A DNA stretch of 64,000 nucleotides from Elainella sp. Prado103 (GCA_025454395.1 JALOOM010000008.1:1-64000); one strand, 5' to 3'; counted from the stretch's first letter, positions 37,288 to 42,993 are shown. Numbers and translations: made by a program. Notes: generated by a model from the sequence alone, not told the origin.

Positions 37288-39633
37288 CTAGTAACGCTCC
37301 CAGGGGGGTTGAAAACCGCGCTGCTGCAAGAATCCTTCCTCAATGCGCTGTTGCTGTTGAGCTAAAGCCGCGTCGTTTGGACGAGTCTGCTGCATCTCTT
37401 CCAGCCGCTCAAGGGCATTCAGCCGTCTGCCTTGCGTCACTTCCAGATCCACCAGCGCGGTTTGCGCCCCCAAGTTGGTCGGATCGATCGCTAACACTTT
37501 GTTATAAAGACCGATCGCCTGGTCATACTGTCGTTGGGCAAACCGCACTCCACCCAATGCTGACAACGCATCTACATTATCAGGATTGCGATCCACCGCC
37601 GCCTGAAAGGCTCGACCCGCTTGCCGCAAATCCCCCTGTTGTTGGGCCAGTTGCCCCTGCACCAAATAGACATTCGGGTTGTCTGGATCCTGGGCAATGA
37701 GCTGATCGAGATAGGCCTGGGCGGCCGCCGGATCCCGATCGGCCAAAACCTGAACATACCGCAGTTGAATGGAGGTATCGTTTGGGTTGTTTTGCAGTAA
37801 GGTCACATAAATGGCTTCCCGATCGGGGCTCGGCGGCAAAGCCGCCACTAAACTGTAGAGTTCGGGGGGGGTATCCGAACTAGGACGCGCTGCCAACCAG
37901 CGATCCAACACTTGCTGAGCTTCTGCCTCTGAGATTAAGCCTGCCTGATAAGCCAAACTGGTTCGACCTAAGATTAAAGCTGGATCTTGCGGGTTGCGCG
38001 CTATCAACTCATCGTAGATCGCCACTGCCTCCGCCAAACGGCCTTGGCTCTGCCGAATCCCAGCCAACCCCTGCAAAGCGCTATCGACCAGGGTTACATC
38101 AGCGGGGTTATTGGCAATGATCGCCTCATAGCGACTGGCACTGGCCTCCAAATTCCCTTGCTGGCGATCGACCTCAGCCCGCAACAACTCACTGTAGAAA
38201 GCCGCAAATTCATCTTGACTCCGCGCTTCATAGGCAGCAAGAGCTGATTCAGCCGCAGCAAAGTTACGACGTTGCACCTCCATCTGAGCAATGCGGTAAT
38301 ACAACCGGGGCTCATCGACGTTGGCAGCGACCAAGAATTCGTAGTAGGGCAACAGCGTCGGGTTGGGGTTTTCTAGCCGCACCAGCGATCGGGCAATCAC
38401 ACTTTGCTGATAGGGGTCGGCTGGCAACGGCTGCATGGCCGCCTCAAGGCGATCGGTCAGTTCCACTTCAGAAATCACCCCAAGTTCTCGCTCTAACACC
38501 GCTTCCGCAATTTGAAAACTGCGATCGTTCGGCTGTTGTTGCAACAATTGCCGGTAAATTTCCAGAGCATAGAGCTGCGCTTCAATTTGCGGAAATCCGG
38601 TTAAGACATCGGCAATTTCCCGCCCAATACTGACGGTTAAATAGTCCCGCTCTTGGGATAACACCTCCTCAAACAGCGGAATGGCTTGATCGGTATAGTA
38701 ATCATCGCCACTGTAACGCCCAATTGCAATTAGCGATCGGGCCAAGATCATGCGGGAATCTCGTCGGCCGCGCAAAGGATCAAGCACCAGCAGGGCCGTA
38801 TCAACCTGTCCCACGGCGGCATAGCTGACGGCTAACTCTGCTCGCATCCGAATCGTAGTGCCATCCAGTTGAGGATTGCGCCTCAGTTCCTGCTCTAACA
38901 GTTGAATGCCCTGTTCCGGGTTGCCGCTTTCCCGCAATGCCAGCGCATAGGCTGTGGCTGCCCCCCCGGTCACCGATCGACCTGTGGCTTGATAGCGGGC
39001 AAACAATTCCAGACTACGAGCATAATCACCACTATAGGCAAAGACTTCAGCCGCTCCCACCAGCACTTCCGGAGTCGGATTCGAGCGCAGCACAATTTCA
39101 TAGTCGGCGATGGCAGCCGTGAAGCGCCCTTGATAGCCGTAGAGCAGAGCCCGTTGGCTTAACGCAGCTAAGTCATTGGGATTCTGGGTCAGTAGGGTAT
39201 CCAATGCGGCAATGCCGCGATCTTGCCATTCGATCCGGTAGCCACCTAGCACCCCCAATCGATAGAGGGCAGTGCGATTGAAGGGATCTAGTTCGAGCAC
39301 TTGCTCATAAGCAGCAAAGGCGGCATCAATCTGTCCAGCCTGTTCATAGGCAGTAGCCAAACCCAAGCGTGCTTCTACCGACTGGGGATTATTGCGCACG
39401 GCCTGTTCAAAAATCGGAATAGACTGATCGACTAACCCCTGATTGAGGAGACGGTAAGCATCCTGGACTGACTGCGCCCAAACCGGGCGAATTCCTCCAA
39501 TCGGCAAGGCGATTTGCAGCAACAATAGCCCCAGTAAACTCGCGACATTCCAGCGGGGGTGACGGGTTCGCAAAGGACGATGGGTTCGCAAAGGACGATG
39601 AGTTTGCAAAGGACGATGGGTTCGTTGCATCAT
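37288..39633 (-). CDS. TPR protein, likely periplasmic half of a split BcsC
   Basis: 781 residues. After a repeat-derived basic N-terminus (HRPLR copies, residues 4-22), a signal peptide follows (ASLLGLLLLQIALP ... PVWAQ, about 30-54). The rest is about 18 tetratricopeptide-type helix pairs, for example ARLGLATAYEQAGQIDAAFA and ALSALGGVRFAQRQYDQAIG. In BcsC of proteobacteria such a TPR solenoid is joined to a 16-strand outer-membrane barrel; here it ends without one. The next gene upstream encodes a barrel-like protein and overlaps it by 4 bp (ATGA). I infer that the two act together as the outer-membrane cellulose exporter. Confidence 0.85.
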   Translation of the reverse strand: MMQRTHRPLQTHRPLRTHRPLRTRHPRWNVASLLGLLLLQIALPIGGIRPVWAQSVQDAYRLLNQGLVDQSIPIFEQAVRNNPQSVEARLGLATAYEQAGQIDAAFAAYEQVLELDPFNRTALYRLGVLGGYRIEWQDRGIAALDTLLTQNPNDLAALSQRALLYGYQGRFTAAIADYEIVLRSNPTPEVLVGAAEVFAYSGDYARSLELFARYQATGRSVTGGAATAYALALRESGNPEQGIQLLEQELRRNPQLDGTTIRMRAELAVSYAAVGQVDTALLVLDPLRGRRDSRMILARSLIAIGRYSGDDYYTDQAIPLFEEVLSQERDYLTVSIGREIADVLTGFPQIEAQLYALEIYRQLLQQQPNDRSFQIAEAVLERELGVISEVELTDRLEAAMQPLPADPYQQSVIARSLVRLENPNPTLLPYYEFLVAANVDEPRLYYRIAQMEVQRRNFAAAESALAAYEARSQDEFAAFYSELLRAEVDRQQGNLEASASRYEAIIANNPADVTLVDSALQGLAGIRQSQGRLAEAVAIYDELIARNPQDPALILGRTSLAYQAGLISEAEAQQVLDRWLAARPSSDTPPELYSLVAALPPSPDREAIYVTLLQNNPNDTSIQLRYVQVLADRDPAAAQAYLDQLIAQDPDNPNVYLVQGQLAQQQGDLRQAGRAFQAAVDRNPDNVDALSALGGVRFAQRQYDQAIGLYNKVLAIDPTNLGAQTALVDLEVTQGRRLNALERLEEMQQTRPNDAALAQQQQRIEEGFLQQRGFQPPWERY
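39561..39623. repeat. 18-bp minisatellite at the TPR gene start
   Basis: About 3.5 copies of GACGATGGGTTCGCAAAG (plus strand). On the minus strand it encodes tandem THRPLR peptides at the very N-terminus of the TPR protein, before its signal peptide. Confidence 0.85.
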
Positions 39634-41408
39634 GGCTGCCTCCGAGGAACTAAATCCAGATCGGCACGGATGCGGAACCCGGCGATCGTTTCTGAGAATT
39701 CATCCAAGCCCTGGAACGTAAAGCCCAACCGGAGGCTGTCTAACACCTGGAAGTCGTAGAAGGCCTCTAGCACATCGGGCTGATCACCATCCCGCAAATC
39801 TCCATTAGAAAGCAAGCGTCCGTAGCCAACCCCCAGTCGATCGTTCTCCATAAACAGATCCAATAAATTCATGCCAAAGCTGTAAGTAGTGGCCGTGCGA
39901 TCGACCCCATCGTTTTCATACCAGCCATAGCGGGCAAACAATCCCAGGTTAATTTCGGGAATAAAGTACTCGGCGTTAATGCCATAGCCCCGCTCTTGAT
40001 CCCCATCCCGCAAGCCAAATTCGCCATTACTGCGTTGAATCTGAAAAATTTCTTCAAAGCCCGTATCGGCTCCGGCATCTTCAGCAGTGATATAGGTACC
40101 GCGCACAATCAAGTTACCGAGTCGGGCTCCGATTTCTCCAGCAAAACCATTCACCTGAAACTCACTGATACTGCGATCGGAGGAAAACACCGAGGCTTTC
40201 ACTTCAATTTCGTCAATAATCGTCCAGTTGAGCACTGCCGCTTGCCGCGAGCCTAACCCCGCTGCCGATAGGGCCGGATTGGTAGCAAACACCGGATTGA
40301 AGAAGTGAGTCGCACTGTCTTTCGCAAAACTGTTGCGATCGAAATAGGAGGTAAGGTCAACTTGCCCAACCACTAACCGCAGATTGGGGTAATCGGGCAC
40401 AGAAGCGGCTACATAGAGTTCATTGATCGATAACCCATCATCCCCCGATTCGCTGAACACATCTCCAGCCGTGAAGTCAATGCTGGCACCCACTTGCAAT
40501 TCCGGTAGGATCGGATACACACCCGTTACCCGCATCCGAGCAGAATCTTCGCCGCCTTGATAGAGGTAGACTCCCTGAAATTGGAGTGAAGGCGGTGTAA
40601 TGGCTCGCGAGGCAGAGGCATCGCTCGTTTCAGTCAAATTCTCTCTCGTTCCGTCTGCCCGATCGGGTTGAGCGGTCTGCGCGACATCAGCGGACTCGGG
40701 CACATCCAGCGGTGCAACGGGCTGATACGGGGGTGGCGTTGAGGGCGAGGATTGAGCAAAAGAGGGTTGAGCCGGTGGAGGCGGGGTCGGAGCCGTCCGA
40801 TCGGCCAGCGGTGGTGTACCGGGTACCGGAATCACCGGCGATTGGGCTACATCCGGCCGTTGATAAACCGATCGCGGCGGAATGGCCAGATTCTGCGGAG
40901 GATTAAAATTGAACTGCTCCGTAGGATTGCAATCGGCCAGGCAATTCTCTGAAATGGACACCGAGTCAGTCGGTAACCCTTGAGCCACTGGCTGACCCCC
41001 TTGAGCCACTGGCTGATCAGCCGCAACACCCATCGAGCCTGCAAGCATGGTTCTCTGCTCAGGATGGCGATCGGGATATTCTTGACGGGTAGCCCCGCCA
41101 GGACGAACTGGGGTTATGGTTTCAGCAGCAGTTTCAGTAGCAGTTTCAGTAGCGGCTGTTCGATCAACTTCTGGATTGACTTCTAGATCAACCAGATCAA
41201 CTTCAGATCGATCGGGGGTCGTACGGGCAATGACATCGGCAGGAGGGGGATCCGCTGGAGTTGACCCCGTCGGGGAAGTTGATGGCAAAACGGGTTGGGC
41301 AACAACAGGTGTAGAGATGGCTATTATATTCAGCCCCAGACAAATCATCATCCAAGGACTAATAGTCATCCAACCACTTAAGGCAACAAGGTTAGACTGA
41401 CTCGTCAT
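39630..41408 (-). CDS. Outer-membrane beta-barrel protein, likely barrel half of a split BcsC
   Basis: 592 residues. Signal peptide 1-38 (cut after VVAQ), then about 245 residues of low-complexity linker rich in P, A, T and Q, with a tandem TATE/TAAE run. From about residue 290 the sequence alternates polar and hydrophobic residues in strands typical of a barrel, ending IAGFRIRADLDLVPRRQP: e.g. LQFQGVYLYQGGEDSARMRV, LRLVVGQVDLTSYFDR, LGLFARYGWYEND. It looks like a porin. As the first gene of the cellulose operon, overlapping the TPR gene, the best guess is the export pore. A general carbohydrate porin is the alternative. The usual C-terminal aromatic residue is absent. Confidence 0.7.
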   Translation of the reverse strand: MTSQSNLVALSGWMTISPWMMICLGLNIIAISTPVVAQPVLPSTSPTGSTPADPPPADVIARTTPDRSEVDLVDLEVNPEVDRTAATETATETAAETITPVRPGGATRQEYPDRHPEQRTMLAGSMGVAADQPVAQGGQPVAQGLPTDSVSISENCLADCNPTEQFNFNPPQNLAIPPRSVYQRPDVAQSPVIPVPGTPPLADRTAPTPPPPAQPSFAQSSPSTPPPYQPVAPLDVPESADVAQTAQPDRADGTRENLTETSDASASRAITPPSLQFQGVYLYQGGEDSARMRVTGVYPILPELQVGASIDFTAGDVFSESGDDGLSINELYVAASVPDYPNLRLVVGQVDLTSYFDRNSFAKDSATHFFNPVFATNPALSAAGLGSRQAAVLNWTIIDEIEVKASVFSSDRSISEFQVNGFAGEIGARLGNLIVRGTYITAEDAGADTGFEEIFQIQRSNGEFGLRDGDQERGYGINAEYFIPEINLGLFARYGWYENDGVDRTATTYSFGMNLLDLFMENDRLGVGYGRLLSNGDLRDGDQPDVLEAFYDFQVLDSLRLGFTFQGLDEFSETIAGFRIRADLDLVPRRQP

Positions 41409-41695
41409 GATTCCGCTTCGGTAAATTGAGAATAATCGCGCTCGCTGAAATAATCACAATAATTACTCAGAGGAGTCGAACTACACTGGATCGTTCAGCA
41501 GCATGGGTTGGAATAATAAGGATGGTCATCATGGCGTTTCTGTCCCTGGGATGATCGGGTGAGATCCATCGAGTTGGCGAGGTTCAAACTGCTTCACTTA
41601 GGCCAGTAAAACAAAATTTGCCCCGTTATGCTCGTCATATCTCCATGATTCAAAGCTTTAAAACAATTCATTCTACTTCTCTTTACCTGTCCTTT

Positions 41696-42484
41696 ATGCG
41701 ATTCAATCTACTCGCCCACCTCCAGCAACAACCTCAGATCAGTTGGGCAACTTGCCATCAGCTCATCACAGTTATCAGCCTCTTGGCTTGCTTGCTGAAC
41801 AGTAGTGGATGTGCCTCCCTACGTCAACTCAATCCGGCTACGACTTCATCAGCCATAGACTTATCCATTTCACGAGTGGTTCCAACTAGCAGTGGTCGCT
41901 ATCTGGTCACTGGCCGTACCACCCTACCGGATCAAACCCGCTTGACCGTTATGGCAATCCGCTCATTCCAATCGACCAACCCAGAGGCTGAACAATCCTC
42001 TTATGTCATCTTGGATCGGCAGATAGTAGAAGTGAACGAAACGACCTGGACGGCGAATCTGGGACTCTGGAAACCGGCTGCCCCAACAGGACAACCCCAA
42101 GAAGCTTGGCAGCAAACTCCTGACTATGGCAAGATGAAGCCGGAACAGTCTGTCACCTTTGTGGTTACAGCTATGGCGACGGCAGAGATGGTAACGGCAA
42201 AGATGATGCCAGACCTATCCAGTCAACCCTCGGAATCACACTCACCCATCAGAACCCTGGATTCAACTTCACAAAATCCACTGTTACGATACACCCCTGA
42301 AGGTGACCCCTACCTCCAAGCCAGTACTCAACTGTCGATCGCTCCACCGATCGGAGCACCTCTACCCACCCTCTCGTCGTCACCTCGTTCGATACCATCG
42401 ATCCAGGCGACGACCGCAGCAGAGCAGGTGATCCCTCAGCCGCACACTGACCTACCCCTGAAAACAGAAGCATTTTTACGCTAA
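41696..42484 (+). CDS. Putative lipoprotein, unknown function
   Basis: 262 residues from the ATG at 41696. A hydrophobic stretch is followed by the lipobox-like LNSSGC (Cys about 40). The mature part has a beta-rich domain (GRYLVTGRTTLPDQTRLTVMA) of about 100 residues that resembles no family I can name, then a Ser/Pro-rich tail. Longer in-frame starts exist at 41645 and 41618 (TTG). It is divergent from the cellulose operon. Its stop overlaps the stop of the convergent next gene by 4 bp. Confidence 0.65.
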   Translation: MRFNLLAHLQQQPQISWATCHQLITVISLLACLLNSSGCASLRQLNPATTSSAIDLSISRVVPTSSGRYLVTGRTTLPDQTRLTVMAIRSFQSTNPEAEQSSYVILDRQIVEVNETTWTANLGLWKPAAPTGQPQEAWQQTPDYGKMKPEQSVTFVVTAMATAEMVTAKMMPDLSSQPSESHSPIRTLDSTSQNPLLRYTPEGDPYLQASTQLSIAPPIGAPLPTLSSSPRSIPSIQATTAAEQVIPQPHTDLPLKTEAFLR

Positions 42485-42993
42485 GTGTTTCCCGATCTAA
42501 ATGCCACCTGCGCATGTCCATTTTGGTGGGCTAGTTCAGCTCGCATCCCTGATTGCTTCAACACGGGTGGTTTTTTACGTTTGGGCGGATGCTTCGGTTG
42601 CTGCCGGGATTGGACAAAATCATCTGACAAGAAGTGGTCTAGTCCCGAAGCCTGCAAACGGCTTGGAGAAAAGCTCAATTTCTCGATCAGGGCTTCTTTT
42701 TCAGTTAACTGCTGCTTCAAATTAGACATCTGGCTTTCGATCCGATCTAGTCTGCGTGCTGACTGCTGCCAACGCATCATTGCCAAATGAGTTGCACCTG
42801 CACCGATTCCTAAGGTCAACGCTAAACCCAGATAAGGAATAGATAAGTCCCTAAACTGTCCTACAAAAACTGGTTTGCCTTCGAGTTGAATTTCAACCGG
42901 TTTTGTACCTAGGGTTGCTAAGGGAAGCGTTGCTGCCGCAAAGATCGCGCTCCCTAGGAACACAGCGGACAGTAGATGCTTTGAAAAACTCAT
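42481..42993 (-). CDS. Membrane protein with coiled coil, unknown function
   Basis: 170 residues. Two membrane segments (about 8-28 and 52-72), then a coiled coil (RRLDRIESQMSNLKQQLTEKEALIEKL) and a basic C-terminal tail (PKHPPKRKKPP). The short loop between the helices (PVEIQLEGKPVFVGQFRD) is probably periplasmic. It resembles small cyanobacterial hypothetical proteins; no function is suggested. The gene converges with 41696-42484. Confidence 0.7.
   Translation of the reverse strand: MSFSKHLLSAVFLGSAIFAAATLPLATLGTKPVEIQLEGKPVFVGQFRDLSIPYLGLALTLGIGAGATHLAMMRWQQSARRLDRIESQMSNLKQQLTEKEALIEKLSFSPSRLQASGLDHFLSDDFVQSRQQPKHPPKRKKPPVLKQSGMRAELAHQNGHAQVAFRSGNT

Follow-up and report, generated by a model that had tools for sequence, protein, structure and literature searches.

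Through which outer-membrane protein does a cyanobacterium export cellulose? The question is raised by a bcs operon in Elainella sp. Prado103 (GCA_025454395.1, JALOOM010000008.1:1-64000), a stretch of 64,000 nucleotides that we refer to as the window. In Escherichia coli, the exporter BcsC contains 19 predicted tetratricopeptide repeats (TPRs) and a 16-strand barrel (PMC11379886). A phylum-wide survey in 2015 found the BCSC_C domain in no cyanobacterium, only TPR domains, and the cellulose exporter was not identified (PMC4594306); a review in 2025 described cyanobacterial operons as typically lacking bcsB and resorted to a TolC model that is unconfirmed (PMC12430437). The operon in the window contains bcsB, and it begins with two overlapping genes, one for an outer-membrane barrel and one for a TPR protein. 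Our results indicate that an outer-membrane exporter of cellulose is probably split between these two genes, its pore being of OprB fold, and the pair may be the exporter that earlier cyanobacterial surveys could not find.

Architecture of the two proteins

The operon is intact and runs on the minus strand from 41408 to 30560 in the order barrel, TPR, glycoside hydrolase family 8 (GH8), BcsB and BcsA. A previous reading of the window, made from its sequence alone (the sequence-only reading), had proposed overlapping barrel and TPR genes within a five-gene operon. Both open reading frames (592 and 781 residues) were recovered, the start of the TPR gene overlapping the end of the barrel gene by 4 bases (ATGA), and the other three members were confirmed by their reading frames and by Pfam/NCBIfam matches. 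The GH8, BcsB and BcsA proteins all passed their Pfam cut-offs, and the GH8 protein stayed under the equivalog cut-off of the NCBIfam model for BcsZ. No HlyD gene is present in the operon.

The TPR protein matched Pfam TPR repeats and no barrel family in Pfam or NCBIfam. Its AlphaFold2 model, built on the family alignment (predicted local distance difference test score, pLDDT, 88.9), consists of 41 helices over residues 50-771, or about 20 repeats, followed by a short tail helix, and contains no strand. The signal peptide ends in ...PVWAQS without a Cys, so the protein is not a lipoprotein. These data agree with the proposal that it is a secreted protein without a barrel. A fold search with the model returned generic TPR proteins only.

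The C-terminus of the TPR protein is much more distinctive. It carries a near-invariant tail, QQRGFQPPWERY, whose Trp778 is invariant in 36 aligned TPR sequences. The tail form RRGFQPxWE / RG[FYL]QxxW closes all 71 TPR C-termini from named loci and 16 out of 17 in the genome set (both sets are described below); the remaining one (RGIQPEWERF) still has the Trp. Trp766 of E. coli BcsC marks the start of the linker after the last TPR, as checked in the K-12 sequence, and a putative cello-oligosaccharide stacks on this residue in the cryo-electron microscopy map (PMC11379886). The tail of the TPR protein thus appears to stop at the point that corresponds to the start of the BcsC linker, and its Trp is in the matching place, a correspondence of position rather than demonstrated homology.

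In the barrel protein, a disordered linker rich in Pro, Ser, Thr, Ala and Gln separates the signal peptide from the barrel. The sequence-only reading was right about the signal peptide and the barrel-like domain, but its figure of 245 residues for the linker should be about 235. AlphaFold2 (pLDDT 77, 16-sequence family alignment) folded the C-terminal 322 residues into a barrel of 16 strands. The closest solved fold was Pseudomonas putida OprB (4gey; Z 24.9, root-mean-square deviation 2.7 over 280 residues), followed by general porins; structures of BcsC and AlgE were not among the listed matches, which does not exclude either. At the sequence level, the Pfam OprB family (PF04966) was matched at 31.3 bits (cut-off 22.9), with the best stretch in the C-terminal part of the protein. 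No Pfam match was obtained to BCSC_C (PF05420), to the S-layer homology (SLH) domain, whose place is taken by the long variable linker, or, at E up to 1, to Alginate_exp, the AlgE family. A sequence search of the PDB with the barrel profile gave no hit.

Within the barrel family, the longest invariant stretch, DLTSYFDRNSFAKD...FFNPVFQTNPAL, lies between strands 5 and 6, and in porins this region is the site of constriction loop L3. Two motifs were noticed in the linkers (residues ~38-270 in the window), both written as patterns after the sequences had been viewed. An E-x-[DNS]-x-x-I-x-Q-type motif is carried by 44 of 89 linkers, where shuffled sequences would be expected to give 1, and C-x3-C-N-P is found in seven of the 89, including that of the window (CLADCNP, in the window's group), never together with the former. 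The motifs look lineage-specific and might be docking motifs.

Taken together, the solenoid and barrel models suggest that the two genes jointly encode what a single BcsC contains, divided at the junction of solenoid and pore; the pore gene leads, and the pore belongs to another sequence family.

Conservation of the gene pair in cyanobacteria

As a phylum sample, we used 386 cyanobacterial genomes. Full-length BcsB was found in 17 of them, that is, in 16 Cyanobacteriia (the class of the window) and in one genome of another class (G343). The barrel profile scored 438-605 bits at 19 places, all of them in the 16 Cyanobacteriia genomes that have full BcsB and at least one in each of these; elsewhere it scored no more than 40.8 bits, against ordinary OprB-like proteins. 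The co-occurrence of barrel and full BcsB has a Fisher exact p of ~1e-28 when phylogeny is ignored. Within this sample, the barrel was not found in same-family relatives lacking BcsB, and both the barrel and the TPR protein are missing from G343 despite its BcsB. The OprB porins of Elainella itself are separate proteins, the two complete ones having SLH-type N-terminal parts. The suggestion that the barrel might be an OprB porin of the general type, having homologues outside bcs loci, was not borne out: it belongs to a discrete family limited to genomes with BcsB, though OprB-like in fold and weakly so in sequence.

With the barrel alignment as query, a scan of GTDB species genomes yielded 194 relatives, of which the best 80, all from cyanobacteria, were mapped as named loci. 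The TPR gene comes after the barrel gene in all 78 loci with enough downstream sequence; the overlap is exactly 4 bases in 45 of these pairs, and in 58 the two genes lie within 10 bases of each other. No fusion of the two was found in related loci holding both genes, and where GH8 is missing from the cluster (15/63 loci) the barrel and TPR genes are kept. The association of the barrel with bcs genes spans seven family labels and dozens of named species. Because the order recurs in dozens of genomes, it is not due to chance, and barrel followed by TPR is the standard arrangement in BcsB-type loci, not a peculiarity of one strain. We also compared distance matrices over 52 loci, in which barrel distances correlate at 0.88-0.89 with those of TPR, BcsB and BcsA. 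Among the partial correlations, that with TPR is the largest (0.26); being weak and not independent, it is not counted as evidence of contact.

Two loci in this survey are irregular. In G343, two adjoining BcsB-like genes (L035 9195-13936) have no BcsA, TPR or barrel gene nearby. Locus L136 (10469-15100) is degenerate, its TPR and BcsB genes seemingly joined by a deletion and its BcsA broken in two.

Proposed export pathway and its alternatives

A possible pathway can be outlined from these models. The N-terminal repeats of the TPR solenoid would dock on BcsB, as in BcsC, and the solenoid would steer the glucan to the outer membrane. Its C-terminal tail, with the invariant Trp, may be placed at the periplasmic mouth of the separate 16-strand barrel, and the cellulose chain would leave through this OprB-fold barrel. 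Either the long flexible N-terminal tail of the barrel protein or the TPR tail could keep both proteins together, replacing the short covalent linker of BcsC. In this outline, the physical complex, the passage of cellulose, the role of Trp778 and docking on BcsB are inferred. The idea of a split cellulose exporter in this cyanobacterium, put forward by the sequence-only reading, is supported in that the TPR and barrel proteins are separate and paired; together they would form the exporter.

Several observations weigh against this interpretation. The closest fold to the barrel is an uptake porin, and the barrel model is moderately confident (pLDDT 77, 16 sequences). No sequence relation to the E. 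coli BcsC barrel was detectable by hhalign, a weak negative with a single-sequence template. The equivalence of Trp778 and Trp766 is positional only. Moreover, this genome has a second bcsB-bcsA locus (L049 8083-13145, C91) without TPR, barrel or GH8 genes, which therefore either shares the exporter described here or indicates that BcsAB can work with something else.

The main alternative is that the barrel is an OprB-type uptake porin recovering cello-oligosaccharides freed by GH8, whereas cellulose exits elsewhere. In addition to the fold and the Pfam match, it draws on a report, as cited in PMC9705863, that OprB is necessary for sugar uptake in Nostoc punctiforme. An uptake role is nevertheless disfavored because the barrel is tightly linked to the TPR gene (78/78, mostly overlapping) rather than to GH8, which is missing from the cluster in nearly a quarter of the loci scored (see above). 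It would also leave the TPR scaffold with no pore, as there is no other BcsC-type barrel in the genome. A profile search with PF05420 had no match in this genome, with a positive E. coli control, which rules out a full BcsC hidden elsewhere, as had been considered for this locus. Across the 386 genomes, any match to PF05420 was found in only eight, two of which pass the cut-off marginally (35.4 and 24.6 bits), in agreement with the 2015 survey (PMC4594306). We therefore consider the uptake reading unlikely.

A clearly weaker case can be made for the exit of cellulose via TolC and an adaptor, with the TPR and barrel proteins only assisting, for example in anchoring or assembly. Such a route has been proposed as the XcsAB-TolC model for other cyanobacteria, and the review that describes it calls it unconfirmed (PMC12430437). 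The model covers loci that lack BcsB and have an HlyD adaptor, whereas the present operon has BcsB, its own barrel and no HlyD gene, so that this route seems quite improbable here. Finally, although OprB-type porins are common in cyanobacteria, the idea that an unrelated general porin adjoins the bcs genes by chance is hardly credible, and general-porin and chance-neighbor readings are ruled out by the conserved neighborhood and the barrel family scan, with strict co-occurrence and adjacency across the taxa listed above and a gap of 438 versus 41 bits.

Comparison with known exporters

The pair resembles BcsC in having a periplasmic solenoid of about 20 TPRs, a barrel of 16 strands for the outer membrane, a locus in common with BcsA, BcsB and BcsZ, and a Trp just past the last TPR. 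The differences are that BcsC is a single polypeptide whereas two genes are used here, that no BCSC_C similarity is detectable in the OprB-like barrel, and that the barrel gene comes first and its product carries a separate signal peptide as well as a long disordered tail. The pair should not be filed as BcsC, because two defining features, the single polypeptide and the BCSC_C domain, fail.

In organization, the closest parallel is the alginate exporter AlgK/AlgE, in which one protein provides the TPR scaffold and another the barrel (PMC9734138). Both systems encode the two parts separately, and here they would likewise act jointly. However, AlgK is an outer-membrane lipoprotein, whereas the TPR protein has no lipobox Cys, the barrel falls outside the AlgE Pfam family and the polymer there is alginate. 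Our verdict is that the pair, with export presumed, is functionally like BcsC and organized like AlgK/AlgE.

Further systems share single features. According to the account in PMC6559018 (citing Roemling and Galperin 2015), BcsK in alphaproteobacterial type III bcs operons is a TPR protein that occupies the BcsC position without the BcsC barrel; the likeness is one of description only, and that account names no dedicated barrel partner for BcsK. The fused TPR-plus-pore exporter gene pelB has been reported split in aquatic thermophiles (PMC7112194), but that case concerns the Pel system, and no cyanobacterial or OprB-fold case was analyzed there. SLH-OprB of cyanobacteria and Pseudomonas OprB have the same 16-strand OprB-type barrel, whereas the barrel described here lacks SLH, has another N-terminal part, always accompanies the bcs TPR gene and forms a distinct, highly conserved family. 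XcsA/XcsB-TolC has in common a PilZ-bearing cellulose synthase and an endoglucanase, and differs in using an HlyD-like adaptor and a proposed TolC in place of BcsB, TPR and barrel.

On balance, we lean slightly toward a broader view in which cyanobacteria adopted an OprB-type porin as a pore dedicated to cellulose export, a separate subunit held by flexible tails to a BcsC-like TPR solenoid, together with a previously unrecognized lipoprotein subunit; this architecture would be distinct from BcsC, PgaA, PelB and AlgE. The arrangement was described in no open-access paper that we found, subscription-only papers, among them the main 2015 review of bcs operons, being outside the search. A concrete candidate pair can now be named in the genomes of many filamentous cyanobacteria and can be tested by a single knockout. 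With the two parts naturally encoded apart, the roles of TPR solenoid and pore in such an exporter could also be studied separately.

Accessory proteins and other loci

Features of the operon and of the genes beside it are listed in Table 1.

Table 1. Coordinates of the bcs operon and adjoining genes in the window
Feature	Position	Strand	Details
Barrel gene	41408-39630	-	Open reading frame, 592 aa; first gene of the operon
Barrel protein	41408-39630	-	Signal peptide, ~235-residue disordered linker and predicted 16-strand OprB-fold barrel (residues ~271-592)
Barrel domain	39633-40598	-	Used for alignment, family scan and structure model
TPR gene	39633-37288	-	781 aa; predicted periplasmic solenoid of ~20 helix pairs; no lipobox Cys in the signal peptide
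GH8 endoglucanase, BcsZ-like	37278-35992	-	Glyco_hydro_8 131.4 bits
BcsB, periplasmic cellulose synthase subunit	35857-33314	-	BcsB 303.4 bits (Pfam)
BcsA, cellulose synthase with PilZ cyclic di-GMP domain	33121-30560	-	TIGR03030 715.9 bits (cut-off 699.1); PilZ 47.7 bits
Predicted lipoprotein, no known family, divergent from the operon	41618-42484	+	Invariant Cys after hydrophobic stretch
Membrane and coiled-coil protein, no known family	42481-42993	-	Shorter here than in most relatives

The lipoprotein gene, whose product has no Pfam family, lies upstream at 60 of 71 loci and is always divergent. The protein was identified in all 16 Cyanobacteriia genomes with full BcsB, and elsewhere in the 386 genomes only one match of 22 bits was obtained; our analysis thus points to an unrecognized lipoprotein tied to the same system. 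The membrane/coiled-coil protein, also without a Pfam family, is present at 50 of the 71 loci. The two proteins are candidates for accessory components of the export system.

The pore may not serve a single locus. Only one bcs-type TPR protein was identified in this genome. Another genome (G011) has two bcs operons with a TPR gene in each and a single barrel, and the parts are therefore separable and possibly shared. If the G011 loci and the second locus of this genome are active, a pore could be common to several bcs loci.

The second bcsB-bcsA locus (L049) has its own divergent lipoprotein, a paralogue encoded upstream, and a gene for a 363-aa response regulator after bcsA; a similar regulator also follows bcsA in L041. 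A third BcsA-like gene of this genome (C111) is under the cellulose synthase cut-off and has no bcs or HlyD neighbor on the stretch read. In small-genome cyanobacteria (L053 9013-13291; similarly L054-L056), a glycosyltransferase whose N-terminal region recalls NfrB/GspE_N is encoded directly after a divergent BcsB-like protein (654 aa in L053), and this pair is possibly another synthase-dependent glycan system.

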